Origin: Aquihabitans sp. G128
Lineage (GTDB): Bacteria > Actinomycetota > Acidimicrobiia > Acidimicrobiales > Iamiaceae
Reading direction: 5' to 3'
Length of the DNA: 64,000 bases
NCBI RefSeq assembly: GCF_019048865.1
Contig: NZ_CP077604.1
Coordinates: forward strand, 3,348,001 to 3,412,000
A program made the position numbers and the translations under genes. The notes beneath the pieces are model-generated. The model did no database searches, was not told the DNA's origin, and saw only the letters and a list, made by a program, of their open reading frames with translations. The first letter of the stretch is position 1; each line of letters opens with the position of its first letter. This document shows, piece after piece, positions 27,833-63,837 of this stretch.

Positions 27833-28034
27833 GCCGCGAGCCTGGCACCTCACCGCGACGGCGAGCGATCGTCATCGCCGTCCTGGCAGAGCCGTCGCCA
27901 AGATCCCAGTCTGCCGGCGTCCCGGCTCAGCGACCTCCACCGGGCACCCTGCGGCCAGACAGCGGCGTGAGCGGCCGCCCTCAGGCGGGCCCTCCGTCCT
28001 GAACGACGAAGGTCCAGGCGTCCTGAACGACCTA

Positions 28035-28071
28035 GGCCCAGGCCGCCCGGAAACCGGGGCTGACCTGGGCC
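28035..28071 (+). terminator. Copy of tRNA-Gly terminator hairpin at left end
   Basis: GGCCCAGG (28035-28042) pairs with CCTGGGCC (28064-28071), with an inner CCCGG/CCGGGG pairing and TTT after it. The same block occurs at 42625-42660 next to the intact tRNA, so it is the leftover of the original locus after integration. Confidence 0.65.
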
Positions 28072-28084
28072 TTTCGTGCTGGAA

Positions 28085-28123
28085 CGGGTGAGGAGAATCG
28101 AACTCCCGTATTCAGCTTGGGAA
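28085..28123. repeat. attL: attL: 39-bp core from the tRNA-Gly 3' half
   Basis: A 39-bp sequence identical to 42674-42712 lies here. It covers the tRNA acceptor 3' strand, T arm, variable region and anticodon arm through TTGGGAA (plus strand). Sequence similarity continues leftward to about 28035 with a few changes. It lacks the 5' half of the tRNA, so it is not a second functional tRNA gene. This is the expected scar of a tyrosine integrase that inserts at a tRNA 3' end. Confidence 0.88.
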
Positions 28124-28244: not shown

Positions 28245-29060
28245 ATGGAGTTGATCTCGGAGGAAGAACTCCGTGTGCTGAGCTACGTCGACACCATCAA
28301 CCGTGGGGGTCATTCGCCGATTGCCACACTCGTAGCAGAGTTCGAGCGGGGACGAATCGAGGCGAGGTACGGTTTTCCCGACGGGTCGCCGCTCGTCACT
28401 ATGGCGAAGATGCTTCAGGTGGCGATGGCCGGCATCCATGGCCCTCGAACCCTGACCGAAGCAGCGGAATCGACCATCGACTACCTGATCCGAATCGGCG
28501 CGCTGGAGGACCCTGGAGCCCTCAGGGTCACCTCGCTTGGTCGAGCCTTGCTGGTCGGGCTCGAGGCGGTGGACGAAGGTTCTGTCGTGGAGGTGGTGGC
28601 ATCCAACGACCCCCACGCCCTAGTGAAGGTCATGGGCCATATCGGCTCTGCGGGCCTAGGGGCGATGTTGGCCGACCCCTACGTGGGCCTGGAACAAGCA
28701 CTGAGGCTGCTGACGTCCACGGGGGTTGACCGTGTGCTCGTCGGTGGCGGGGACGCTCGCGCCAAGGCCAACGCCGAGATGAGGGCAGCGTTAGATGTGG
28801 CGCCCATTGGGCGTGTATTCGAGGTGCGAGTCGCAGGTAGGGAACTCCACGACCGCTGCCTGGTCCCGCGATCAGGACCGGTGACCATGATCGGCGGGTC
28901 CCTCAACACGTTCGGCAAACGATCCGTAGTGCTAACGACCGTCGAGGATCGTGAGGGTGCGGTGCGTCGCACCTACGAGGATCTTTGGTCCAAGGCCGAG
29001 ACTTTGGTGAAGTGCACGCCGCCCGACGAAGTGGAGCTAGACGACGCGGCAACCGCCTAG
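28245..29060 (+). CDS. PLD-like C-terminal domain protein with winged-helix-like start
   Basis: The 271-residue protein starts at ATG 28245 (MELISEEELRVLSYVDTINR). The first 110 residues are helical with a winged-helix look (ESTIDYLIRIGALEDPGALR, then VTSLGRALLVG). The C-terminal 130 residues read like one phospholipase-D-superfamily half: VDRVLVGGGDARAK and, near residue 205, ELHDRCLVPRSGPVTMIGGS followed by LN. This is an H-x-R/K plus GGSLN pattern. Only one such half is visible, so dimerisation would be needed for a nuclease site. It is the first cargo gene inside attL. Its stop overlaps the convergent DUF6308 gene by 4 bases. Function not established. Confidence 0.65.
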   Translation: MELISEEELRVLSYVDTINRGGHSPIATLVAEFERGRIEARYGFPDGSPLVTMAKMLQVAMAGIHGPRTLTEAAESTIDYLIRIGALEDPGALRVTSLGRALLVGLEAVDEGSVVEVVASNDPHALVKVMGHIGSAGLGAMLADPYVGLEQALRLLTSTGVDRVLVGGGDARAKANAEMRAALDVAPIGRVFEVRVAGRELHDRCLVPRSGPVTMIGGSLNTFGKRSVVLTTVEDREGAVRRTYEDLWSKAETLVKCTPPDEVELDDAATA

Positions 29061-29737
29061 AGAGGGACCTCTGTGTCTGATAGCGGAACGGCATGGTCAC
29101 TCGAGTCCTCGGTATCCGAAGCCCCAGCAAGAGGATGTGTGGATTCGATGGAGAGCCAGACGGATACGTCGAGCAGACGCAGGTCGGTGACGTAGGGAGG
29201 AACTGCTGATCCCGCACGGGCGCGCAGCGAATCGACGGCGGGGCCGAGAGCTGGCGTGCTCCATGCCGCCACCATCGGAGCCCACCATTCCGAGACCTTC
29301 CGGGCGTCGAGGGCCTCCTCGACGAAGGAGTCCCGAATCGGCACGAGCCCAGGGCGCTTCACCGCCAAGAGCTTCGAGGCCCTGGTGGGGCCGATCGACT
29401 TCATGGAGCGGAGAAGGCCGTAGAGCTCGGCCGCAGCTCCATCCGATGCGAGGGCATCCGCCGACTGGTCGTCGCGAATGCTCACGACGCTGGGAATCGC
29501 CTGGAGCAGGCCGGTACACCTCTTTGCCTCTCGGTCGAGGAGGTCGGCGCCAGTGTGCGGTTCGATCTCGGCCGACAGCAGCGCGCAGGCATAGAGGTCC
29601 CCGGCGGTGAAGCGATCTGGAGGACCCTCCATCGCGACGCGGTCGAATCCGCGACCCGAGTAGGTGGTGAAGTACGACTCCAGCCCGCTGACGGGCGCTG
29701 CGTCAGCGATCTCGCAGAGCACCTGAGCCCAGGTCAT
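29057..29737 (-). CDS. DUF6308 family protein
   Basis: The 226-residue protein starts MTWAQVLCEIADAAPVSGLE. It contains FTTYSGRGFDRVA and DRFTAGDLYACALLSAEIEP, which are family hallmarks, then a helix-hairpin-helix-like stretch LRSMKSIGPTRASKLLAVKR (about residues 115-134) followed by PGLVPIRDSFVEEAL. DUF6308 is actinobacterial and uncharacterised; the hairpin resembles those of DNA-glycosylase-like folds. Its ATG overlaps the stop of the upstream nuclease-like gene (ATGA), so both are made from one transcript. The unusual Ser/Thr-rich tail after residue 200 is not conserved. Confidence 0.78.
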   Translation of the reverse strand: MTWAQVLCEIADAAPVSGLESYFTTYSGRGFDRVAMEGPPDRFTAGDLYACALLSAEIEPHTGADLLDREAKRCTGLLQAIPSVVSIRDDQSADALASDGAAAELYGLLRSMKSIGPTRASKLLAVKRPGLVPIRDSFVEEALDARKVSEWWAPMVAAWSTPALGPAVDSLRARAGSAVPPYVTDLRLLDVSVWLSIESTHPLAGASDTEDSSDHAVPLSDTEVPL

Positions 29738-31176
29738 GGCTCGGTGTCCGCTGCCGGGGCTTCGGGTGCGGGTGCCACGGCATGGTCGGGGGCTGCCGAC
29801 GGTGCCGGTATGGGGCGGGGCGTGTACGTCGCACCGTCCTGGGAAGAGGCCGCCGTCGACACGAGGCTGTGGTTGACACCTTGCTCCTGGGCTTCTGCAT
29901 CTACCTGCTCCGGGACGGGCCGGAGCTTCGGGGCGCTGGGCGCCCAGGGCCGGAGGTTCTGGGCGGTGCTCTCGTAGAAGGACTCGAGGATGCCGAGGAC
30001 CGATCCGATGAAGGTGCCCCGGCCCTTGCCCCGCTTGGCTCCCATCGGGGCGGCCAGGACGAGGCGGAAGGCTCGCAGCTCCTTTGAGGGGTCGGGGACG
30101 AGGAGGGCCGGGTTCTCCCGGACGTCTTTGAGCAGCTCCGAGGAGGCGACCGAGCGGCCGTTCACGACGTAGGTGTCGATGCGGAGGTTGTCGGGTGCGT
30201 CCTTGAGCTGGCGGACGAGCCAGTTCACCCGGGTGGTAGCTCGACCTTCCTTGGGAGCATCGATGGTGAGGGAGCAGGTGACCTTTTGCGCCCGGATGTC
30301 GGCGCCGAGCGTCAGCGGAGCAACGGAGCCGATGATCTTGATCTCTCGCTCGAGCAGGCCGTTCTGCGCCAGGCCGCCAACAAGGGATTGGTTGGCGAGG
30401 AGCGGGTCGGCCTGCTCTTTGCGGCTCAGCGCCGGCTGGACCTCGACGCCGAGCTTCTGGCCGTGCGTGAGGCAAGCGAAACGGACGAGCTGGTCCCAAC
30501 GCGAGGCGACGCGAGGCGCGCCCTTGTCGGTCGGGCGGAACGTGCCGGCTTCGATGGCGTTCCGGACGGTGACCCAGTCCTCGCCCATGTCCTCGAATCC
30601 CATAGCTCCGGAACGAGGGTGTTCCAGGTAGCGGATGAGCTCACCGAGGATCCAGGCCTGGTCTGGATCAGCGACGCCACGATGCACCTTCTGCATGACC
30701 GCAGCGGTCTGCACCTCGGTCCACGAGAGGTGGTGGATCGCCACCTTGCGGAGCTTGCGCTTGTCGATGGTCGTTGGGTGGACGCCCGGCGTCGGGGCCA
30801 GCTCGTTCGAGATTGTCAGGAGCGCGTCGAAACCCTCGGCTCGGGCCACGTCCAGGTAGTCCTCGAGCTGGGGCCCGGCGAGGTCGTTCGACTGGGTCTT
30901 GACCTCCACCAGGGCGACCCACGTCTTCGACCCCCGGGACACGCGGATCAAGCCGTCGGGGAACACCTTCCGCTCCCCGAGGTCGAACGGAACCTCGATG
31001 AAGGTCTCGACGGTGCCCGATGGCGCCCCCATCGACTTCGTGATGGCGGCGCCGAACTCACGCACCGCGCTCATCACGGCGAGCAGGGCCGATGTCGCCC
31101 TCCGCTCTTGCTCCTCGGCCCCGTTGATCCCAGAAGTTGGGATCAGTCGCGCCGCGTGCCAGGTCTCTTCAGCCAT
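29734..31176 (-). CDS. PD-(D/E)XK nuclease-like protein (stress-response annotated family)
   Basis: The 480-residue protein starts at ATG 31176, with GGAGGGGG upstream, as MAEETWHAARLIPTSGINGA. A PD-(D/E)XK-like core lies at about residues 68-105: ERKVFPDGLIRVSRG, then TWVALVEVKTQSNDLAGPQL, giving D...E-x-K. The following GFDALLTISNELAP and the long helical C-terminus are conserved in an actinobacterial family often labelled stress response protein. A Pro/Ala-rich tail ends it. I infer a nuclease or nucleic-acid-binding role; that is not demonstrated. It is divergently transcribed from the AAA+ operon across 152 bases. Confidence 0.72.
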   Translation of the reverse strand: MAEETWHAARLIPTSGINGAEEQERRATSALLAVMSAVREFGAAITKSMGAPSGTVETFIEVPFDLGERKVFPDGLIRVSRGSKTWVALVEVKTQSNDLAGPQLEDYLDVARAEGFDALLTISNELAPTPGVHPTTIDKRKLRKVAIHHLSWTEVQTAAVMQKVHRGVADPDQAWILGELIRYLEHPRSGAMGFEDMGEDWVTVRNAIEAGTFRPTDKGAPRVASRWDQLVRFACLTHGQKLGVEVQPALSRKEQADPLLANQSLVGGLAQNGLLEREIKIIGSVAPLTLGADIRAQKVTCSLTIDAPKEGRATTRVNWLVRQLKDAPDNLRIDTYVVNGRSVASSELLKDVRENPALLVPDPSKELRAFRLVLAAPMGAKRGKGRGTFIGSVLGILESFYESTAQNLRPWAPSAPKLRPVPEQVDAEAQEQGVNHSLVSTAASSQDGATYTPRPIPAPSAAPDHAVAPAPEAPAADTEP

Positions 31177-31328
31177 GTGGCCCCCTCCGCTCGTGGACAA
31201 CCGTACGCCTACAAGTCGCACAGCTTGGGGGACCAGGCCGACAGAGGTGGGGCCGAGGTAGCGGTACGGGCGAACCAGTAGGTTGCAGGCGGGAGCGGCT
31301 GGTGGGTCGCTGAGGAGGAGCATCCCCG
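31177..31328. promoter_or_regulatory. Shared divergent promoter region
   Basis: These 152 bases separate the nuclease/DUF6308 operon (minus) from the AAA+ operon (plus), so both promoters must lie here unless transcripts are longer. GAGGAGGAG at 31312-31320 is the ribosome-binding site for GTG 31329. I see no confident -10/-35 pair. Confidence 0.45.
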
Positions 31329-32960
31329 GTGGACAGTACGAGCGAGTTCCGAACAGTCCTGGTGCAGCTCATCAAGGCCAGGAACCCGGTTCTTCTCGTG
31401 GAGACGCATGAGGAGGAACGGGTCGTCGACATCGTCCTCGGCCTCGCCGAGGACCCTGAAGCGCTGAAGACCCGGCGCAACGTCGTCGTCTACTCCCTCA
31501 CGAAGGGCCTCCACCAGGCCACCGCCACCGGCACTGCGGTCGCACCAGACAAGGCGTTGGCCCAAGCAGCGAATGCCACCGAGCCGACGCTGTTCGTGTT
31601 CTTCGATCTGCATCACTCGCTAGCGGGCCAGCGTGGCGCTGAGCCCGGCACGGTTCGAGCTATCCGAGACCTGGCCGAACAGTTCAAGAACGGTGACGTC
31701 GCCTCCACGCTGATCATCGTGGCGCCGACCCTCTCCCTGCCGGTCGATCTCGAGAAGACGGTCTCGGTCGTCAACCTGCCCCTCCCCGGCGCCGCCGAGA
31801 TCGAGGAGGTGTTGGAGGAAATGATCCACTCCAACCGCGACGCGATCACTGTCGATCTCAGCCCCGACGACCGTCACCGCCTGGTTCAGGCCGCCCTCGG
31901 CCTCACCCGAAACGAAGCCGAGAACGCCTTCGCCCGAGCCATCGCCATCGACGGCCGTCTCGACGCCGCCGACGTTGAGCTGGTGCTCGACGAGAAGCGC
32001 CAGACCATCCGCAAGTCCGGGCTTCTAGAGTTCATTCCGCCCTCGGGCGACCTCAACGACGTCGGCGGGCTGGAGAACCTCAAGCGCTGGCTCGGCAAGC
32101 GCAACAGCTCCTGGCAGGCGGAGGCCGAGGAATGGGCGCTTCCGTTCCCGAAGGGAATCCTCATCACAGGCGTGCCTGGCTGCGGCAAGAGCCTCACCGC
32201 CAAGTGCACCTCCAGCCTGTGGGGCATGCCGCTGCTGCGTCTCGACATCGGGCGGGTCTTCGCCGGCCTGGTGGGGTCCAGCGAGCAGAACATGCGTGGT
32301 GCCTTGGAGCTGGCCGAGGCCACCTCGCCATCGATCCTGTGGATCGATGAGATCGAGAAGGGCTTCGGCTCGGCCGGCGGCGGGGGCGACTCTGGCACCA
32401 GCCAGCGCGTCTTCGGGACCTTCCTCACGTGGATGCAGGAGAAGCAGAAGCCGGTGTTCGTCATCGCAACGGCCAACGCCATCGATCGGCTCCCGCCCGA
32501 GTTCCTGCGCAAGGGTCGCTTCGATGAGATCTTCTTCGTCGACCTCCCTACGCACGCGGAGCGCACCAGCATCTGGAACCTCCACCTTCGGCGTCGCCTG
32601 CTCCCGGGACGTGCCGTCTCGGCAAGCCTTGCCCTCGACGCTGCCTTGGTCGATCGCCTGGGAGCTTCCAGCGAGGGCTTCTCGGGAGCCGAGATCGAGC
32701 AGGTGGTCGTCAGCGCATGCTTCGACGCCTTCGCCGAACGCCGCGGCGTCACTGAAGAGGACCTGTTGCGCTCCATCCGCAACACCGTCGCACTATCGGT
32801 CACGCAGGCCGAGCAGATCGCCGCCAACCGCACCTGGGCCTCCACCCGGGCCGTGGCCGCCACCGCCACAGAGGACCTCGATCAGTACGAGAGCACCCCG
32901 CCCACCGATCCCACCACCGACGTCGGCCGTTGGCGTGGCGGCCGGACCATCGAGTTCTAG
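31329..32960 (+). CDS. Ycf46-like AAA+ ATPase
   Basis: The 543-residue protein has an N-terminal domain of about 240 residues (LVQLIKARNPVLLVETHEEE, with TEPTLFVFFDLH and IIVAPTLSLPVDLEKTVSVV), the arrangement of plastid/cyanobacterial Ycf46. A classic AAA module follows: Walker A GVPGCGKSLTAK (about residues 280-291), pore-loop-like RVFAGLVGSSEQNMR, Walker B ILWIDEIEKGFGS, second region of homology VIATANAIDRLPPEFLRKGR with the Arg finger region RFDEIFFVDLP. The C-terminal AAA lid contains GFSGAEIEQVVVSA. Ycf46 has no firm function. GTG 31329 has a strong GAGGAGGAG site. It is the first of five co-directional genes spaced by overlaps or short gaps. Confidence 0.88.
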   Translation: MDSTSEFRTVLVQLIKARNPVLLVETHEEERVVDIVLGLAEDPEALKTRRNVVVYSLTKGLHQATATGTAVAPDKALAQAANATEPTLFVFFDLHHSLAGQRGAEPGTVRAIRDLAEQFKNGDVASTLIIVAPTLSLPVDLEKTVSVVNLPLPGAAEIEEVLEEMIHSNRDAITVDLSPDDRHRLVQAALGLTRNEAENAFARAIAIDGRLDAADVELVLDEKRQTIRKSGLLEFIPPSGDLNDVGGLENLKRWLGKRNSSWQAEAEEWALPFPKGILITGVPGCGKSLTAKCTSSLWGMPLLRLDIGRVFAGLVGSSEQNMRGALELAEATSPSILWIDEIEKGFGSAGGGGDSGTSQRVFGTFLTWMQEKQKPVFVIATANAIDRLPPEFLRKGRFDEIFFVDLPTHAERTSIWNLHLRRRLLPGRAVSASLALDAALVDRLGASSEGFSGAEIEQVVVSACFDAFAERRGVTEEDLLRSIRNTVALSVTQAEQIAANRTWASTRAVAATATEDLDQYESTPPTDPTTDVGRWRGGRTIEF

Positions 32961-32973
32961 AAGCAGCCGATCC

Positions 32974-33414
32974 ATGAGCATCGAGGTCATCCTCATCCCC
33001 ATCGGCATCGCCGCCTACAGCGCCTACAAGGAGCGCCACCGCACCGATCTGTGCGAGGGCTGCCGTCAGACCCGAATCACCGACCCCGCTCTGCTCGAGC
33101 GCACCCTTGTCTCGCTTGGCGCCACTGGAGTGGTCGTCGACTTCGAGGGCCTGGTGGTCACCGGGCAACTTGGCCAAGACGTCGTGCGCTTCCAGCTCAT
33201 CGGCGGCGCCTACTTGGGCCGGATCGACGACTCCACCGACGAGGCCACTGAGGCGTTCGTCAGCGCCGTGGACGCCGAGGTCGGCCGGCTCGTCCAGGCT
33301 GACAAGGTCGACGAGATGCGCACACGGGCAGCTCAGCTCGGCCTGGTGCTCGTCGGGGAAGAGGTGGCCGAAGACGGCACCGTCCAGCTGGTCTTCGAGG
33401 AGGTCGAGGCATGA
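32974..33414 (+). CDS. DUF1257 (Ycf35-like) protein
   Basis: The 146-residue protein starts MSIEVILIPIGIAAYSAYKE. The body fits DUF1257: DPALLERTLVSLGATGVVVD, VVRFQLIGGAYLGRIDDSTD and the ending AAQLGLVLVGEEVAEDGTVQ, the family's E-E-V..DG-x-I/V-x-L pattern. The first 25 residues are hydrophobic, so it may be membrane-associated, and C-E-G-C at about residues 28-31 is a possible metal-binding pair. DUF1257 genes commonly sit beside Ycf46-type ATPases and DUF2997, which is the case here. Start ATG 32974 lies 13 bases after the ATPase stop. It overlaps the next gene by 4 bases. Confidence 0.7.
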   Translation: MSIEVILIPIGIAAYSAYKERHRTDLCEGCRQTRITDPALLERTLVSLGATGVVVDFEGLVVTGQLGQDVVRFQLIGGAYLGRIDDSTDEATEAFVSAVDAEVGRLVQADKVDEMRTRAAQLGLVLVGEEVAEDGTVQLVFEEVEA

Positions 33415-33635
33415 CCCGAAAGCGCATCACCGTCCAGGTCCTGGCCGACGGCACCCTGCGAGCCGAGACGAGCGGGGTGACCGGCCCCGGCTGCCTAGAC
33501 GAGGTGGCCCGCATCGAGGCCCTCTGCGGCGAGACCGTCACCGACTCCAGCCTCACTCCCGACTACCACGCCTCCGCCACCGCCACCGCAACCGACGACC
33601 TGGCCCTCGGCCAGAACCTGGAGCAGGACGGATGA
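33411..33635 (+). CDS. DUF2997 family protein
   Basis: A 74-residue protein that reads MTRKRITVQVLADGTLRAET, SGVTGPGCLDEVARIEALCG and SSLTPDYHASA. The DUF2997 pattern is the DGT strand, then G-x-x-G-x-x-C-x-x, ending in a T-P-E/D-Y motif; all parts are seen. The single conserved Cys near residue 28 could be the modified or metal-binding residue. ATGA overlaps on both sides (33411-33414 with DUF1257 and 33632-33635 with the next gene) put it in the same translation unit. Function unknown in any organism. Confidence 0.75.
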   Translation: MTRKRITVQVLADGTLRAETSGVTGPGCLDEVARIEALCGETVTDSSLTPDYHASATATATDDLALGQNLEQDG

Positions 33636-34417
33636 ACACTCCCGCCGAGAACCTCTGCGATCGATCCTGGCGCGTTCGCAACAGTGCCTGGCTCCTGGGC
33701 CCCATCCTCTCGGTAGGACTGCTGACCTGGGCATCCCTGTGGTACGTGAGCAGAAAGACCGGGCGGGCCGACTGGCGTCGGGCAACCCAGGCCTTCGGCG
33801 TGGCCGGCGCTGTCTTGTTTGTTTCGATCCTGACGCTGGGAGACGGAAAGAAGGGGACCTCGACACCCGGTGACACGGTTGGGGCTCTCATCATGATGGT
33901 GGTCTGGATCAGCAGCATCGCCTACTGCGTGCGGGCCAATCGGCCGTGGCTGATCTGGCGGGCGCACCACACCGGGGATGCCGCCTGGTACGCCACAGCG
34001 GCGGCCACCCCGACACCTCCTCCGAATCCCTCCGGGCCTTCGGTGGACGACGTCTTGCTTGGGTCGGCTTCCACCGCCTGGGCACCTCCGCCTCCGCCGC
34101 CTCCGCTGCTTCGGCCGCCTCCTCCTCGAGACGCAGCGACGACCTCGGCGGCGTCGCCGGCCGGTCCTATCGACGCCAATCGTTCGAACGCGGCTGACCT
34201 GTCGGTGCAGCTCGGGCTGGCCCCTGAGGCCGCTCAGCGTCTCGTCGCCGAGCGGACCAGGATCGGCGGGTTCACCCACGTTGACCAGCTGATGACCGTC
34301 GGCGGCGTCCCGCCTCATGTCTTCGCCGGCATTCGGAACCGGATCACGCTCTCTCCTGCGGCCCCTCCCCCGCCGAAGGCCGCACCATCAGGTCGCGGCC
34401 GGCGGCTCGATCTCTGA
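33632..34417 (+). CDS. Membrane protein with C-terminal helix-hairpin-helix
   Basis: The 261-residue protein has three hydrophobic spans near the N-terminus (AWLLGPILSVGLLTWASLWY, AFGVAGAVLFVSILTL, VGALIMMVVWISSIAYCV). A cytoplasmic Pro-rich linker with PPPPPPP and PPPP follows, and a C-terminal helix-hairpin-helix of the ComEA kind: NAADLSVQLGLAPEAAQRLV, then GGFTHVDQLMTVGGVPPHVF. The soluble HhH could bind DNA or a nucleic-acid substrate, tethering it to the membrane. In the operon it comes between DUF2997 and the radical-SAM protein. No family name beyond the HhH module. Confidence 0.78.
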   Translation: MNTPAENLCDRSWRVRNSAWLLGPILSVGLLTWASLWYVSRKTGRADWRRATQAFGVAGAVLFVSILTLGDGKKGTSTPGDTVGALIMMVVWISSIAYCVRANRPWLIWRAHHTGDAAWYATAAATPTPPPNPSGPSVDDVLLGSASTAWAPPPPPPPLLRPPPPRDAATTSAASPAGPIDANRSNAADLSVQLGLAPEAAQRLVAERTRIGGFTHVDQLMTVGGVPPHVFAGIRNRITLSPAAPPPPKAAPSGRGRRLDL

Positions 34418-34425
34418 ACGACAAC

Positions 34426-35172
34426 GTGACCGCCCTGTCCGTGGCCCGCGTACTACATGGCACCACCGCCGAGGGACCGTTCCTGCGGACAGCGGTATGG
34501 GTGCAGGGCTGCTCTATCCGCTGCCCCGGATGCATCAACCCGCACCTGTTCGAACCCGGCGGACCCGATGCCGACGTTGATGGTCTGGCCGACGCCATCG
34601 TGACCGCCGGCGTCGAGGGACTGACGTTGTTGGGTGGCGAGCCGTTCGACCAGGCGGACGCTTGCGGCTTCCTGGCCGAACGGGTGCGAGCCGCCGGACT
34701 CGGGGTGATCACCTTCACCGGCTACGCCGTCCAGGACCTCCGCAGTCAGCTGGCCGATTCGCCGGTCCACCGGCTCCTGGCCGCCACCGACCTTCTGGTC
34801 GACGGCCCGTACCAGCACGACGCCCCCGAGTCGGCCCGAGCTCTCGTCGGCTCGACGAACCAAGGCTTCCACCATCTCACCGAGCGCTACCGGTCCTACG
34901 ACCCGGCGACCCGCCGTAACCGCATCGACATCCGCATTAGCGCTGATGGCGACACCCGCCTAGCTGGCTTCCTCACCCGCCCCGGCCTCCGGAGCCTCAC
35001 GGGTTCGGCGGCAGTCAATCTTTGTGCCTCGTCTCTGAGCACGCCAAGCGAATCCCCTCCCGGGACTCAGCCTGACGGTCGATCGGAATCGAAGGCCCTC
35101 ACGTCTTCGGCGACTTGGGCAAGCGCACGGCGCATGCGCTCGCCGGCGTCGAGGAACCAGTCCAGGTACTGA
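34426..35172 (+). CDS. Radical-SAM / 4Fe-4S single-cluster protein (NrdG-like)
   Basis: A 248-residue open frame from GTG 34426. The iron-sulfur loop is VQGCSIRCPGCINPHLF (about residues 28-44), C-x3-C-x2-C, as in the 4Fe-4S single-cluster domain of NrdG-like activases. LTLLGGEPFDQADACGFLAE (62-83) is the SAM-binding GGE motif. The segment GLGVITFTGY and ATDLLVDGPYQHD complete the half-barrel. The family match ends near LTRPGLRSL; the last 60 residues overlap antisense with the DUF4268 gene. A +1 shift near 35000 would stop at 35036-35038, 28 bases clear of it, so the tail may be a frame artefact. It likely modifies a protein or nucleotide; the operon partner is the likely substrate or motor. 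Confidence 0.75.
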   Translation: MTALSVARVLHGTTAEGPFLRTAVWVQGCSIRCPGCINPHLFEPGGPDADVDGLADAIVTAGVEGLTLLGGEPFDQADACGFLAERVRAAGLGVITFTGYAVQDLRSQLADSPVHRLLAATDLLVDGPYQHDAPESARALVGSTNQGFHHLTERYRSYDPATRRNRIDIRISADGDTRLAGFLTRPGLRSLTGSAAVNLCASSLSTPSESPPGTQPDGRSESKALTSSATWASARRMRSPASRNQSRY

Positions 35173-36042
35173 TCCCACTGAGCCTCCTCGAGGATGTCGC
35201 CGTCTTCTCGGTAGGTGGCGATCCGGCAGGCTCGCTTGCCTTCGATCTCGTCGAACTTCGAGTTGATGGCCAAAAGCGGCCTCAAGTAGCTCGCGTCGCT
35301 CGACCAAGAGCTCGAAAAGCGCCACGTTGGCCGAGGAGTCGCCGCGATCGATGTACAGCTCGTGACGGAGGCGACGGCCTTGCGCGAACGATGGGTTGAT
35401 CTGGGTCCCCTGGAACGGCCCGCCGAAGGACATCCAGTTGGCCGGTTGTGGCGATCCACGCCGACCCCAGTCGCTGTGCTCGGATGCCTGGCGCTCCAAG
35501 TATCGCTCCCAGAAAGTCCGGTACTTCTCGCTCCGGGGGCTCATCCCGCCGCCGGACCGGCTAGCGGTGCGGACGCGCTTCTGCCAGTCGTTGGGTTTCG
35601 ACACGACCTCGAAGAGGGGTGCGGGCGCCGAAGTACCGATCCTCACGAGGGACAGCACGACTCCGAAGAAGTGTGTGTCCTCGCCTGTTTGCTCGTTGAG
35701 CCAGTCGAGTGCCTGCCGATGCTCGTCTCGGAAGGCCGTTGCGATCCACACGATGGTCGTGGCCCCCGTTCCGGCAGCGTACGTGAGGACTTGACCGAGA
35801 TGCGTGTGATCGGTCGGCTCCAACTGGTTCTCGACCATGAGCACGGCGTCGTTGGTGAGGTCCTGTCCGATGAGGTCGAGCGAGTAGCCCCCCACGGGAT
35901 GCTCCGCTGCGTGTAGTTCCAGCTCGATGCCAAGGGCTCGGCCCAGCCGCTCCGCATTCGCCAGAAGCCATGGCGTGAAGTCACGCGCTTCGTTGGCCCA
36001 GACGGATCGAGGTTGAACAGGTTCGATGTCGCCGAGTTCCAC
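35067..36042 (-). pseudogene. DUF4268 protein, frame broken near 35259
   Basis: From ATG 36042 the frame gives MELGDIEPVQPRSVWANEAR, a DUF91/nuclease-like first part (SLDLIGQDLTNDAVLMVENQ, with D-x-x-x-x-N-Q), TIVWIATAFRDEHRQALDWL, and the DUF4268 start ELYIDRGDSSANVALFELLV. The continuation KFDEIEGKRACRIATYREDG to the stop at 35067 is in the next frame. One surplus G (plus-strand C35259) in CTC-G-AAG explains the break. Uncorrected, the first frame runs to 34960 into the radical-SAM gene. DUF4268 proteins often accompany restriction or defence genes; a nuclease-like role is likely for the corrected 324-residue product. Confidence 0.78.
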
Positions 36043-38704: not shown

Positions 38705-38974
38705 CACCGGGACACCGGACCGGGACGCAATGCACCCGTCTGCTCGGATCGGTGGTTCATGCCCCCTATGCGGTGAGCGGGCCGGGATCTCTGAGGAAGC
38801 TCGGCAGATGGGGCTGGCGGGACGGCCGGGACGCTCGGCGGGACGGTTAGTGGGGCCGGAGGCCTTCCGTCGGGAGGGGCGCAGGGGTACCGTCAGGGGC
38901 GACGCGTCGTCGGGACCGCCGAGACCTGGCCAACCTCACCGCAGCTCAGGCTGCCCTCCTCGGAGGAAGTGCTC
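38705..38974. other. Relaxase-integrase intergenic region, oriT candidate
   Basis: These 270 bases lie between the divergent relaxase and integrase genes. They contain three spaced copies of GGGACG-type repeats (around 38818-38848), an imperfect palindrome CCGGAGGCCTTCCG near 38860, and the integrase ribosome-binding site GGAGGA at 38962-38967. oriT of MobF relaxases usually lies beside the relaxase gene, so this is the first place to look. No excisionase gene is visible. Confidence 0.4.
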
Positions 38975-40083
38975 ATGGCGCGTCAGCGCAGGGCGGGGGG
39001 TGGCGTCGATCGTCTCCCGTCCGGCCGGTTCCGAGTCCGCATCGTCTCGCCCGAGGGCGAACGCATCAGCATCGGGTCCTTCACCACCCGCCGTGCCGCC
39101 GAGACGGCCTACGCCCGCTCGCTGGCCGACCGCGCCGACGGCAAGTGGCGCTCCCCGATCGAAGCGACAATCACGCTCGAGGAGTGCGCCACCGGCTGGA
39201 TCGAAGAACGGCTCACCAGCCGAGGCGAACCGCTCCGGCCGCGGGTGAAGGACATGTACCGGTCCCAGCTCCGCCTACACATCCTCCCGACCCTCGGCTC
39301 CATCCCCGTCCCGAAGATCACCACCGCCCGGGTGCGGTCATTTTCGGCCGAGAAGCGGGGACCCGACGGGCCCGGCGCCAGCACGGCCGCCAAGTGCTAC
39401 CGGCTGCTTCGCTCGATCATGACCACCGCCACCGAGGATGGGCTCCTCGCCGCCAACCCGTGCAACATCAAGGGCGCCGGCGTCGAGCCCGCCGAGGAGC
39501 GACCGATCCCCACCGTTGCCCAGGTCCACGCCATCGCCGAGACGATCCATCCCCGGTACCGCTGCATCGTCCTGCTCGCCGGCTTCGTCGGCCTCCGCAA
39601 GGGCGAGCTGCTCGGCCTCCGCCGCTGCGACCTCGACCTCGAAGCTGGCGAGCTGTCCGTCGTCCAGCAGCGCCAGCTCGACCGCCACGGCCAACACCTC
39701 GTCGGCCCACCCAAGACCGCCGCCGGCAAGCGCACCATCGCCCTCCCCGCCAGCCTGATCCCAGACCTCCAGCACCACCTCGACGAGTACGCCGAGCCCG
39801 GGCGGTACGGCTACGTGTTCACCGGCCAGCAGGCAATCCCCTCGCACCCCACGTCCTCCACGGCGCCTGGCCACGGGCGAGAGCAGCCCACGACCTCGAC
39901 CACATCCACCTGCATGACCTCCGCCACCTGGCCGGCACCCTCGCTGCCAGCACCGGCGCCGGCACCAAGGAGCTCATGTACCGCCACGGCCACGCCAGCC
40001 CCCAAGCCGCCCTCCTCTACCAGCACGCCACGAGAGAGCGTGATGTTGCGCTTGCTAGCGCGATTGACGAGTTGCTTGCCTGA
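38975..40083 (+). pseudogene. int: Tyrosine recombinase integrase, frame broken near 39825
   Basis: From ATG 38975 (GGAGGA 7 bases upstream) the frame encodes MARQRRAGGGVDRLPSGRFR, an arm-binding AP2-like start, a SAM-like core-binding domain (ECATGWIEERLTSRGEPLRP) and the catalytic Arg in LLAGFVGLRKGELLGLRRCD. After YVFTGQQ the match moves to the other frame: APHVLHGAWPRARAAHDLDH, HLHDLRHLAGTLAASTGAGT (H-x-x-R) and ELMYRHGHASPQAALLYQHA (H and the nucleophile Tyr), ending at 40083. One G seems missing from GGG near 39825. As written the enzyme lacks its catalytic C-terminus. The integrase type (tRNA 3' end) fits the attL/attR found. Confidence 0.86.
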
Positions 40084-40126
40084 GGCCGTAGCGCTCACTG
40101 AGCCAGAGACAGCGTTGGCAAGACAA

Positions 40127-40891
40127 TCAAGGTGCGGGCGTCGCTTCACCAAGAGAGGTGAGAAGGGCTGTCTTCGTAGCATCGTCCTCACCCACCCAGA
40201 ATCCCCCTGCAGGCCACGCAGCCGAAGGAGCAGGGATCAGCGCTACGAGCCGCTGCATGTACAAGTCGGAGTAGCGACGGTCACCCACCAAGTAGGCCAG
40301 CGAACAGGATGTCGCAAAGTCTGCTGCTTGAAGCAACCTCGAGTAGGTCGAGTCAGTACATAGTTCGAAGGCAACTCGGGGCGCTCGGTGTACCGGATCA
40401 GCGCAGGTCGTCGACAGATACTTCAGAAACTGCGGGCCACCCTTGCCGTACCCGTTGCTGGGGAGGTCAAATACATACGACAGGCCGAAGTCGCCGCTCA
40501 CAGCGGACGAGATGCTTTCGGTCAAGAATCGATGCAAGGAAGCCCGATCCTCCTCGAGGTCTGCGACCGCTCCTGAGACGCTTAGCAATAGCTGAATCTC
40601 GAACCGCTCGAAGAGGTCACACACTGCTGCAAGAAAGGCTTGGCGAAGATCGGCATCTAGCGCATGCATCGTGGTCCCAGCCTTCGGAGACCATTTGAAC
40701 TCGTCAAAGTCGCCGAATCCTGTTGTTCGACATAGCTCCCGCAGGTCCCACGCGATCTCCGGAAGCAATGCGCCTCTACACACGATACCGCCGTAGCCTT
40801 GGAGATGATCTCCCGCTCCCGGAAGAAGGTTGCGCAGACGTTGCGAGACCTTCTGCTTTGAATCGTCAACGAATAGAACGTTGAATTCCAT
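40127..40891 (-). CDS. DUF3800 family protein, partner of the reverse transcriptase
   Basis: The 254-residue protein starts MEFNVLFVDDSKQKVSQRLR. DUF3800 proteins have an N-terminal Asp motif on the first strand (here FVDDS), a G-G/A-x-V strand (GYGGIVCRGALLPEI), an E-x-K-W segment (FDEFKWSPKAG), and a final LLQAADFATSCSLAYLVG where the Asp completes a predicted RNase H-like site; all four are present. The domain is thought to be a nuclease, but this is not shown for this branch. The ATG at 40891 follows the RT stop by 2 bases (TGACGATG), so translation is coupled. It is convergent with the integrase. Low GC, like the RT gene. Confidence 0.78.
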   Translation of the reverse strand: MEFNVLFVDDSKQKVSQRLRNLLPGAGDHLQGYGGIVCRGALLPEIAWDLRELCRTTGFGDFDEFKWSPKAGTTMHALDADLRQAFLAAVCDLFERFEIQLLLSVSGAVADLEEDRASLHRFLTESISSAVSGDFGLSYVFDLPSNGYGKGGPQFLKYLSTTCADPVHRAPRVAFELCTDSTYSRLLQAADFATSCSLAYLVGDRRYSDLYMQRLVALIPAPSAAWPAGGFWVGEDDATKTALLTSLGEATPAP

Positions 40892-42576: not shown

Positions 42577-42624
42577 AGGGTCACGTTAGGGTCACGAGGC
42601 CGATTTTGGGCCTGAACGGCGAAA
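42439..42624 (-). ncRNA. Candidate structured leader RNA of the RT operon
   Basis: If the RT starts at TTG 42438, 186 bases remain between it and the tRNA terminator. They include a hairpin GCAACG/CGTTGC (42503-42524, 10-base loop), a 6-bp stem GGGCCG-TG-CGGCCC (42561-42574) and two direct copies of TAGGGTCACG (42576-42585, 42587-42596). RT defence systems of the DRT and retron kinds use a structured RNA placed right upstream. No template sequence can be named. Low confidence: position and hairpins only. Confidence 0.3.
42576..42596. repeat. Two direct copies of TAGGGTCACG
   Basis: A 10-bp sequence repeated with 1 base between (period 11, one helical turn) at the right end of the element, 78 bases from attR. 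It may be an operator of the RT operon or an integrase/excisionase arm site. Confidence 0.6.
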
Positions 42625-42659
42625 GCCCAGGCGGCCCGGAAACCGGGGCTGACCTGGGC
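42625..42659 (-). terminator. tRNA-Gly terminator
   Basis: On the minus strand GCCCAGG pairs with CCTGGGC around an inner CCGG pairing, followed by TTTC, 10 bases after the tRNA's encoded CCA end. The same block is duplicated at the left element end. Confidence 0.7.
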
Positions 42660-42668
42660 CTTTGTGGT

Positions 42669-42742
42669 TGGAGCGGGTGAGGAGAATCGAACTCCCGTAT
42701 TCAGCTTGGGAAGCTGATGTTCTGCCATTGAACTACACCCGC
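42669..42742 (-). tRNA. tRNA-Gly (CCC anticodon)
   Basis: Read on the minus strand, the cloverleaf closes fully: acceptor GCGGGTG/CACCCGC, D arm GTTC-AATGGCA-GAAC, anticodon stem TCAGC/GCTGA with loop TTCCCAA (anticodon CCC), T arm GGGAG-TTCGATT-CTCCT. The discriminator base is T and CCA is encoded (42669-42671). The 3' part from the anticodon loop on is shared with attL, so the element replaced it on integration and kept the gene intact. The RT operon follows in the same direction after the terminator. Confidence 0.95.
42674..42712. repeat. attR: attR: 39-bp core inside intact tRNA-Gly
   Basis: Identical over 39 bases to 28085-28123; the match ends at TTGGGAA where the two sequences diverge (GCTG here, ACGC at left). 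Upstream of this point the tRNA 5' half is chromosomal; the rest came from the element's attP. Confidence 0.88.
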
Positions 42743-59823: not shown

Positions 59824-61673
<1,850 letters not shown>

Positions 61674-61677
<4 letters not shown>

Positions 61678-62273
61678 CCGACCCCTCCGCGAACGACCCC
61701 GTGGTCGAGGCCGAGGAGGTCGAGGACCCCCTCGGCCCCCCGGCCGCGGCCGACGGCCCCGCCGGGGGCGCGGACGATGCCCCCGTCGACGGCGAGGTGC
61801 CGGCCGACGGTGCCGCCGATCGCAGCGGCGCCTCGGTCGAGGAGCTGATCGCGCTCCTCGAGCAGACCACCGCCGAGCGCGACGACTACCTCGACAAGTG
61901 GCGCCGCAACCAGGCCGACTTCGAGAACTCCCGCAAGCGCCTGGCCAAGGAGGCCATCGACGCCGGCACCCGCGCCGCCGAGGCGCTGGTCGACAAGCTG
62001 CTGCCCGTGCTCGACGCGTGCGACGGCGCGGTGGCCCACGGGGCCGCCGAGGTCGAGCCGATCTTCGCCGCCCTCTTGGGCACGTTGGAGAAGGAGGGTC
62101 TGGTCCGCATCAACCCCGCGGGCGAGGAGTTCGACCCGAACGTGGCCGAGGCGGTGCTCCACGAGCCCGCCCAGGACGGCGACGACGGCACGGTGGTGTC
62201 CGACGTGCTGCGGCCCGGCTACAGCTGGAAGGGCCGCGTGGTCCGCCCGGCCATGGTCAAGGTCCGGGGCTAG
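61674..62273 (+). CDS. grpE: Nucleotide-exchange factor GrpE
   Basis: The 199-residue protein has a long Asp/Ala/Pro-rich N-terminal region (about residues 1-55), then the coiled coil [20 protein letters not shown] (residues 53-72) and [20 protein letters not shown]. The GrpE core is complete with [40 protein letters not shown] and the final beta-wing [19 protein letters not shown] 61674 overlaps the dnaK stop (ATGA). GrpE releases ADP from DnaK. Confidence 0.96.
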
Positions 62274-62281
62274 GTCCACCC

Positions 62282-63457
62282 ATGGCTGCACAGCGCGAGT
62301 GGTTCGAGAAGGACTACTACCGGGTGCTCGGCGTCGCCGAGGACGCCGACGCCAAGGACATCACGCGCGCCTACCGGAAGCTGGCGCGGGAGAACCACCC
62401 CGACGCCAACCCCGGGGACTCGGCGGCCGAGGAGCGCTTCAAGGAGATCTCCGCGGCGTACGACGTCGTGGGCGACGCCGAGAAGCGCAAGGAGTACGAC
62501 GAGGTCCGCGCCGCCGGCCCCATGGGCCCCGGTGGGCCCGGGGGGTTCGGCGGCGGGGGCCCCAGCGGCGGCTTCACGTTCAACGCCGGCGACATGGGCG
62601 GCGGCCTGGGCGACGTCTTCGGCAACCTGTTCGGGGGCGGCCGAGGCCGCGGCGGTCGGGGCCGGGCCACCGGCCCCCAGCGCGGCGGTGACCTGGAGGC
62701 CGAGCTCCACCTCGGCTTCACCGATGCTGTCGCCGGGCTCACCACCACGCTCCACCTGGTGAGCGATGCGGTGTGCCACGTGTGCAACGGCAACGGCGCC
62801 GAGCCCGGCACCACGCCCACCACCTGCCCCACCTGTGGCGGGCGCGGCGTGGTCGACGACGACCAGGGCTTCTTCGCCACCCAGCGCCCGTGCCCGCAGT
62901 GCGCCGGCCGGGGCGTCCTCATCGAGCACCCCTGCAAGAACTGCCGGGGCGTCGGCATCGAGCGCCGGCCGCGCGAGGTCAAGGTCCGCATCCCCGCCGG
63001 GGTGCACGACGGCCAGCGCATCCGGCTCAAGGGCCGGGGCGATCCCGGCCGCAACGGCGGCCCGCCGGGGGACCTGTTCGTCACCTGCAAGGTCGACCCC
63101 CACGCCCTGTTCCGCATGGACGGCCGCGACCTCCGCATCACCGTCCCCATCACCTTCCCGGAGGCCGCCCTCGGCGCCGACATCTCGGTGCCCACCATCG
63201 ACGGCGCATCGGTGAAGGTTCGGCTGCCCGCCGGCACCCGCACCGGCCGCACCTTCCGGGTGAAGGGTCGTGGCGTGGCCACCACCAAGGCCACCGGCGA
63301 CCTGCTGGTGACCGTCGAGGTGGCGGTGCCGGTGACGCTCAGCGACGCCGAGCGCGCCGCGGTCGAGGCCCTGGCGGCCGCGGCCGACGAGTCGCCCCGC
63401 GCCCACCTGTTCCCGCCCGCCGCTCCCGAGCCCGAGACCGAGGAGGCCTCCCGATGA
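62282..63457 (+). CDS. dnaJ: Co-chaperone DnaJ (type I)
   Basis: The 391-residue protein is a full class-I DnaJ: J domain [20 protein letters not shown] with the HPD tripeptide in [11 protein letters not shown], a Gly/Phe-rich region (about residues 80-125, [15 protein letters not shown]), four zinc-binding motifs ([32 protein letters not shown]), and the substrate-binding beta-barrel ([40 protein letters not shown]). ATG 62282 lies 8 bases after grpE. It delivers substrates to DnaK and stimulates its ATPase. Confidence 0.97.
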
Positions 63458-63837
63458 CCCGGTCACCGCAGCACGCGGTCTACGTGATCTCCGTGGCCGC
63501 CGAGCTGGCCGGGGTGCACCCCCAGACCCTGCGCATCTACGAGCGCAAGGGCCTGGTCGATCCCGCCCGCACCCAGGGCGGCAGCCGCCGGTACTCCGAC
63601 GAGGACATCGAGCTGCTGCGCCGCATCCAGGAGCTCACCAACGAGGGCCTGAACCTGGCCGGGGTGCAGCGGGTGCTGGTGCTGGAGGCCGAGAACCAGC
63701 GCCTCCAGGCCGAGCTCGACCGCACCCGCGCCGAGGCCCAGGCCGAGGTGGCCGAGGTCGAGCGGCGCAACCGCTACGACATCGTGCCGGTGCGCCAGGC
63801 GGTCGTGCTCTACGAGGGCAAGCGCCGCCGCCGCTGA
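63454..63837 (+). CDS. hspR: Heat-shock repressor HspR (MerR family)
   Basis: The 127-residue MerR-type regulator opens [20 protein letters not shown] with recognition helix [20 protein letters not shown], then [20 protein letters not shown] and a coiled-coil region ([20 protein letters not shown]), ending in the basic stretch EGKRRRR. HspR represses its own operon and clpB at normal temperature with DnaK as co-repressor in Streptomyces and Mycobacterium; the matching operators in this window fit. Its ATG overlaps the dnaJ stop by 4 bases. Confidence 0.95.

Follow-up and report, generated by a model that had tools for sequence, protein, structure and literature searches.

Organisation of the operon

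The 64,000-nucleotide stretch of Aquihabitans sp. G128 analysed here (NZ_CP077604.1, positions 3,348,001 to 3,412,000; hereafter the window) carries at 31329-35172 five open reading frames (ORFs), all on the + strand, encoding in this order an AAA+ ATPase, a DUF1257-like protein (gene 2), a DUF2997 protein, a membrane helix-hairpin-helix (HhH) protein and a radical S-adenosylmethionine (SAM) protein. Gene 2 starts after a gap of 13 nt, each of the next two junctions is a 4-nt ATGA overlap, and 8 nt separate the HhH gene from the radical SAM gene. A preliminary description of this DNA had proposed a five-gene operon joined by overlaps or short gaps, and the coordinates and Pfam matches bear it out; what it missed is a C-terminal tail common to the ATPase and the membrane protein, an unexpected result. 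The parts of the operon are:

31329..32960, + strand: AAA+ ATPase (Cdc48-D2-like; Ycf46-type relatives), 543 aa, GTG start; Pfam AAA 106.8 bits
32934..32957, + strand: C-terminal tail of the AAA protein, RGGRTIEF
32974..33414, + strand: DUF1257-like protein (gene 2), 146 aa; hhalign to DUF1257; AlphaFold2 (AF2) predicted local distance difference test (pLDDT) 89
32974..33027, + strand: hydrophobic N-terminus of the DUF1257-like protein, MSxxhhhhP type
33411..33635, + strand: DUF2997 small protein, 74 aa; PF11211 36.5 bits
33492..33494, + strand: invariant Cys28 of DUF2997 (62/62 rows)
33632..34417, + strand: membrane HhH protein with predicted transmembrane segments, Pro-rich linker, ComEA-like HhH and C-terminal tail
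34163..34348, + strand: HhH domain (HHH_3), Pfam 37.6 bits
34391..34414, + strand: C-terminal tail of the HhH protein, GRGRRLDL
34426..35172, + strand: NrdG-like radical SAM protein, GTG start; Fer4_12 86 bits
34510..34533, + strand: CxxxCxxC [4Fe-4S]/SAM motif of the radical SAM protein (Cys 29, 33 and 36 in 55/55 rows)

The gene set recurs elsewhere

Profile searches of fetched loci gave 45 in which an AAA, a radical SAM and an HhH gene occur together (the window and 44 others; L001 and L035, which are copies of the window, are omitted from all counts over the 45). All five families are present in 43 of them; the two loci that fall short are both on contigs of ~5 kb. The preliminary description had held that genes not found together elsewhere would point to a chance assembly. 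With 43 of 45 loci holding all five families in the neighbourhood survey the operon stands: the five genes are a conserved operon, not a chance assembly. By their record titles, the loci come from Actinomycetota, Bacillota, Gastranaerophilales, Bacteroidota (Tenacibaculum, Tannerellaceae), Armatimonadota (Armatimonadetes) and a Sebaldella metagenome-assembled genome (MAG). Plasmids of Rhodococcus aetherivorans and Paenarthrobacter carry the same five genes in identical order, and the window AAA protein shares 63-65% identity with its counterparts in this operon on plasmids from Rhodococcus and (Paen)arthrobacter. An Arthrobacter plasmid has most of the five genes annotated as hypothetical, yet they match the profiles; on a further Paenarthrobacter ureafaciens plasmid the set is visible in the annotation, with genes 2 and 4 given as hypothetical proteins.

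Gene order is variable among the loci, and HhH genes are sometimes repeated (seven in L108); in L112 (2473-4173) a single protein has seven HhH repeats and the tail. Six Gastranaerophilales-type loci share a recurring chromosomal setting in which the operon adjoins a cluster whose tested member (L104) is an EPSP synthase. Outside the 45, AAA and HhH are the only families present in a Methanosphaera MAG (L085), whose contig stops just past the AAA gene, and a four-gene version in Paenibacillus consists of AAA, a Pfam-positive DUF1257 in the place of gene 2, DUF2997 and a 4Fe-4S protein. On phage contigs, 10 of 32 loci have AAA, DUF1257 and DUF2997 without HhH, and none of these ten stretches holds a radical SAM gene; an eleventh trio locus from the phage search, L151, which represents the L004 contig again, has the complete set of five. 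One group of phage contigs (L168, L171, L175, L177-L179 and L182) encodes DUF2997 proteins that share a GERV-type or GERI-type C-terminal motif. As for a sixth conserved gene, the candidates were rejected: the other many-locus clusters are ORFs overlapping the core, which we took to be antisense (strand checked on the representative only).

A C-terminal tail common to ATPase and HhH protein

We scored the pattern R.[ILVMA][DE][FILVWYM] at the C-terminus of the core proteins and of other ORFs no shorter than 60 aa. Within the 45 loci, 57 of 58 HhH-domain proteins carry it, as do 39 of 45 ATPases (typically as RGGRxIDF), but none of the 132 other core proteins (radical SAM 0/45, DUF1257-like 0/44, DUF2997 0/43) and only 3 of the 3014 other ORFs. 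Loci L071-L150 were taken as the 80 best among 569 relatives of an AAA alignment in which the tail was included. Among the ATPase exceptions, L065 ends in FEF, the contig end truncates L091 and L113 has the motif plus one residue, while L075, L105 and L114 are without the motif.

A flexible-looking linker separates the HhH domain from the tail. A model of the HhH domain without the tail recovers the same proteins; for other HhH proteins in five operon-bearing genomes, the matches stop at or before model position 80 and the tail is absent. Searches with the HhH-plus-tail model found, among the matches listed, only the window's own genome and perhaps also G283 of 396 genomes of the phylum and, centred on Bacillus, 1 of 398, the centre genome itself. 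The possibility that the tail is a radical SAM (glycyl-radical) site was dropped, since there are E-R tails without Gly.

The tail is also found on proteins other than the HhH protein. One of the three background ORFs, in L080, follows the HhH gene immediately on its downstream side; its 246-aa product bears the tail, is hydrophobic at the N-terminus and contains an Mrr-type restriction domain (75.9 bits). In L093 a 166-aa membrane ORF bears the tail without an HhH domain. In Sanguibacter hominis (L072), in whose genome we found no DUF1257 or DUF2997 match, the ATPase gene is followed by that of a Pro-rich membrane protein that is without HhH and ends in GPGRRLDL. On phage contigs L156 and L173 the ATPases end in GRAIDA or GRAIEV and the protein encoded between DUF1257 and DUF2997 ends in YERKMDI or YGRVIELD; by eye we judged the CxC...CxH pattern of the latter protein, which has no Pfam match, to be SWIM-like. 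A DUF3150 protein of L156 ends in SRVMDVE.

The HhH domain departs from the DNA-binding type

At least one transmembrane segment is predicted in 53 of 58 HhH proteins. The second Gly of the second hairpin is kept in 1 of 56 HhH rows, as compared to 39 of 44 ComEA-type and other HhH controls (Fisher 4e-21, an overstatement given that the HhH rows are related; eight operon-type rows are excluded from the controls), and the HhH rows often have His where the controls have Lys. The alignment thus indicates that the HhH domain has lost its second DNA-binding hairpin, which weakens the earlier suggestion of a DNA-binding membrane anchor. The window protein scores 22.1 bits against an NCBIfam comEA cut-off of 152.35. 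In an AF2 model of the HhH-plus-tail fragment the HhH domain is confident and the tail has a pLDDT of ~64; the nearest structure is ComEA (8dss). The alignments used here and below hold 59 of 60 HhH fragments (A3) and 66 of 93 DUF1257 stretches (A4).

The ATPase and its relatives

The nearest PDB structure to the AAA domain (residues ~238-488) is Cdc48/p97 D2. Over residues 14-521 the window protein is 44-45% identical to cyanobacterial AAA proteins encoded next to DUF1257, and by this full-length similarity, rather than by comparison with slr0374 itself, it would count as Ycf46-type. In an AAA tree built without 13 loci that were duplicate or short, and with every row trimmed of its last 25 residues, 47 of 48 HhH-positive rows fall into one 51-row clade (SH-aLRT 99). 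Four rows of this clade have no HhH gene in the fetched stretch: L072, L117 and L118 are also without the tail by pattern, and L107 (an 8-kb contig) is tailed.

Tail-less chromosomal relatives of the ATPase have clpB and dnaJ/hspR nearby in 6 of 10 genomes of the class (L242-L244, L247, L249 and L250; up to 5 kb on either side), and a Pseudanabaena plasmid locus reads GrpE-Hsp70-DUF1257-ATPase-DUF2997-AAA. These heat-shock gene neighbours support a role in protein remodelling.

Gene 2, DUF2997 and the radical SAM protein

The preliminary description had named gene 2 a DUF1257 protein. It does not match Pfam DUF1257 (PF06868, cut-off 22.2 bits), and a relative from Aneurinibacillus scores 20.4 bits, under the same cut-off; yet hhalign of 26 gene-2 relatives with 15 mostly cyanobacterial DUF1257 proteins gives a probability of 96.4% (E 1.2e-9), which identifies gene 2, on profile similarity, as a distant DUF1257 relative. 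A Foldseek search with its AF2 model returned no PDB or viral match at E<=0.001. DUF1257-like proteins of HhH loci mostly open with a conserved hydrophobic MS..hhhhP segment (Ser2 invariant and Pro9 at least 90% in 26 rows), as opposed to MSHFSTLRTKI in cyanobacteria; the threshold for a hydrophobic N-terminus is passed by 32 of 45 of them vs 4 of 41 others, with a wrong start picked for some.

DUF2997, which exceeds its cut-off (24.1 bits) and has the GxxC motif, does bear the Cys that had been singled out earlier; its modification, also proposed then, may take place. The radical SAM protein scores 68.6 bits against an NCBIfam NrdG equivalog cut-off of 126.1, and the alignment shows no counterpart among its relatives for the last ~60 aa.

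The integrative element and its other genes

The operon is carried by an integrative element of ~14.6 kb at a tRNA-Gly gene, with a MobF relaxase and an integrase ORF, so that the mobile-element location suggested beforehand holds. The element is bounded as follows:

28022..28123: left direct repeat, 102 nt, 90% to the right copy
42611..42712: right direct repeat, 102 nt, overlapping tRNA-Gly 42669-42742 (- strand)

Of 396 genomes of the phylum, 3 have DUF2997, that of the window among them, a count that fits patchy transfer. The integrase gene (38969-40363, + strand) is apparently split over two frames, integrase-like C-terminal residues running on in ORF 39145-40083; the cause would be an indel in the assembly or else decay of the element. 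The element also holds a PADLOC candidate PDC-S11 gene (PDC-S11/DUF4268; 34960-36042, - strand) that converges on the radical SAM gene and whose C-terminus seems to run on in another frame (ORF 35067-35459), as well as a DUF6308 gene (29060-29710, - strand), a family also found upstream of the operon on a Paenarthrobacter ureafaciens plasmid (L235 2900-3556). No relative of PDC-S11 or of the other cargo genes tried was found in the other loci by tblastn. Divergent to the operon lies the gene of a 529-aa protein (29734-31323, - strand) without a Pfam or PADLOC match; by eye, its FPDG...EVK pattern is possibly PD-(D/E)xK nuclease-like. A dnaK-grpE-dnaJ-hspR cluster (60040-63786, by tblastn) lies in the window ~17 kb beyond the element.

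A possible mechanism and its alternatives

We regard it as an evenly balanced proposition, built on sequence, that the operon encodes a membrane-recruited AAA+ protein-remodelling machine whose adaptors share a docking tail. The ATPase, with the DUF1257-like and DUF2997 proteins as cofactors, would be a chaperone-type unfoldase, and the HhH protein would be a membrane-anchored adaptor that may bring the ATPase to the membrane. The C-terminal motif on its flexible linker would dock the ATPase and the adaptors to each other, directly or via a common receptor, and the adaptors would be interchangeable: mostly HhH proteins, in some cases an Mrr nuclease or a membrane protein rich in Pro. Candidates for the receptor are the ATPase itself, which L072 would favour, the HhH domain and the DUF1257-like protein. 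The absence of a radical SAM gene beside the phage trio suggests that the NrdG-like protein is an accessory, probably acting on the region of the invariant Cys of DUF2997, as their co-occurrence and the invariance of this Cys would suggest. More tentatively, and with doubt prevailing, the tail R-x-h-[DE]-h-COOH may be an address code by which a single AAA+ ring, together with DUF1257 and DUF2997, works for interchangeable tailed partners (the membrane HhH protein, the membrane Mrr nuclease, the Pro-rich membrane protein and the phage SWIM-like proteins), such that hosts, plasmids and phages could swap partners by attaching the tail.

Several results weigh against a docking tail on a remodelling machine. 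AF2 docks no tail on the HhH domain of its own HhH-plus-tail fragment in cis; the tail of the L072 ATPase is itself degenerate (GGGRKVVF); and several ATPases with no HhH gene in the fetched stretch (e.g. L002, L069, L116 and L133) have tail-like ends. The tail and the HhH protein appear to be largely of single origin: the tree yields five independent tail/HhH pairs on starred branches (~3 concordant, essentially none opposed, 2 tied; sign test p 0.25), too few for a phylogenetically independent test of the association, which we dropped. For four of the ten loci from the class, the stretch read holds no chaperone genes, and the radical SAM gene is missing from beside the phage trio.

A defence or stress role had been thought plausible on account of the mobile element. 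In an anti-phage or anti-plasmid system the membrane HhH protein would sense foreign nucleic acid and the ATPase would drive an effector, such as the nuclease partner of L080. The setting is suggestive: the operon resides on an integrative element here and on plasmids elsewhere, is rare in the phylum and has PDC-S11 next door, and PDC-S11 and mad3 make up 2 and 4, respectively, of 101 neighbour ORFs elsewhere (set A7, chosen from 162 selected, with four L111 ORFs added). These neighbours are candidate defence proteins, but the counts come without a control set and we do not use them as proof. We nevertheless consider defence rather unlikely: the second hairpin of the HhH domain is degenerate, six loci sit in the chromosomal setting beside EPSP synthase, phages themselves carry the trio, genes 2-5 match no PADLOC model and the tailed nuclease is found in L080 only, of 45 loci. 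Nor does the operon qualify as IetAS, a defence system in which IetA is paired with a protease partner: the ATPase reaches 66.4 of the 510 bits required by NCBIfam IteA, and Pfam finds no protease domain in the operon.

If the HhH domain were instead the tail receptor, the membrane proteins would chain head to tail and the ATPase would join by its own tail. The co-existence of tail and HhH on the same proteins, the tandem HhH genes of L108 and the seven repeats of the L112 protein, an HhH surface altered from the DNA-binding type and the concurrent lack of the tail in 3 of the 4 main-clade rows lacking HhH would all fit, but the lack of docking in cis and the tails found beside ATPases in loci without HhH (L072, L156 and L173) make such a chain quite unlikely. 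That the tail is a substrate tag – a processing, radical SAM modification or degradation signal on clients – we hold to be improbable. While it is a short C-terminal motif on otherwise unlike proteins, and a radical SAM gene is present in 45 of 45 loci (by selection), the ATPase itself is tagged, seven loci with DUF1257 and DUF2997 but no HhH, in a count that includes duplicate loci, have the radical SAM gene without the tail, and the operon holds no protease. Finally, the ComEA-like fold, the MobF relaxase and the conjugative plasmids could point to an accessory DNA-transfer module of the mobile element, made of HhH protein and ATPase; given the loss of the hairpin, the chromosomal loci and the fact that the operon is not specific to transfer genes, we judge it highly improbable.

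Comparison with known systems

A membrane-recruited remodelling machine with tailed adaptors would have a parallel in SspB, whose XB motif recruits ClpX according to PMC12373786: a short adaptor motif likewise recruits an AAA+ ring. As compared to SspB/ClpX as described there, the ATPase here also carries the motif and the operon has no protease partner. The AAA domain is like that of Cdc48/p97 D2, but the N-terminal ~230 aa are unmatched in the best stretches and the ATPase pairs with DUF1257 and DUF2997, unlike Cdc48/p97. With ComEA the membrane protein shares the HhH fold and the membrane anchor, while it has lost the GxG of the second hairpin and gained the linker and the tail. The radical SAM protein is Fer4_12/NrdG-like and has the CxxxCxxC motif in common with NrdG, but falls below the NrdG cut-off, and the operon is without a glycyl-radical enzyme.

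The closest likeness in gene content is to cyanobacteria, where the same three families are found in the Ycf46 AAA/Ycf35 (DUF1257)/DUF2997/Fed7 set; Ycf46 and Ycf35 are also found in red-algal plastids. Published work describes a cyanobacterial cluster duf2997-ycf35-fed7 in which fed7 is a [4Fe-4S] ferredoxin (PMC4284462), a stress-responsive operon of unknown function in which slr0374 encodes Ycf46 (PMC7496141), a lowering of EcaB activity by slr0374 inactivation (PMC7496141, citing Jiang 2015) and a link of ycf35 and ycf46 loss in red-algal plastids to habitat (PMC5940233). In the literature on Ycf46, Ycf35/DUF1257 and DUF2997 that we searched, no molecular role turned up, and we found no description of the five-gene set or of the shared tail, subscription papers being outside the search. 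A compact plasmid-borne version with a visible shared motif would give a direct handle on how this ATPase family finds its partners, and the tail offers a rule for recognising new ones that has already yielded a nuclease and phage proteins.

In many of L119-L149 the cyanobacterial DUF1257 gene adjoins the AAA gene; for these AAA proteins the label Ycf46 comes from name and neighbourhood rather than from a comparison with slr0374. Unlike in the operon described here, no HhH or radical SAM gene was found adjoining these AAA genes, and their DUF1257 proteins are without the hydrophobic N-terminus. The cyanobacterial AAA proteins end in a conserved QR[ML]EF, which resembles the tail, as against RGGRxhDF in the ATPases of the operon.

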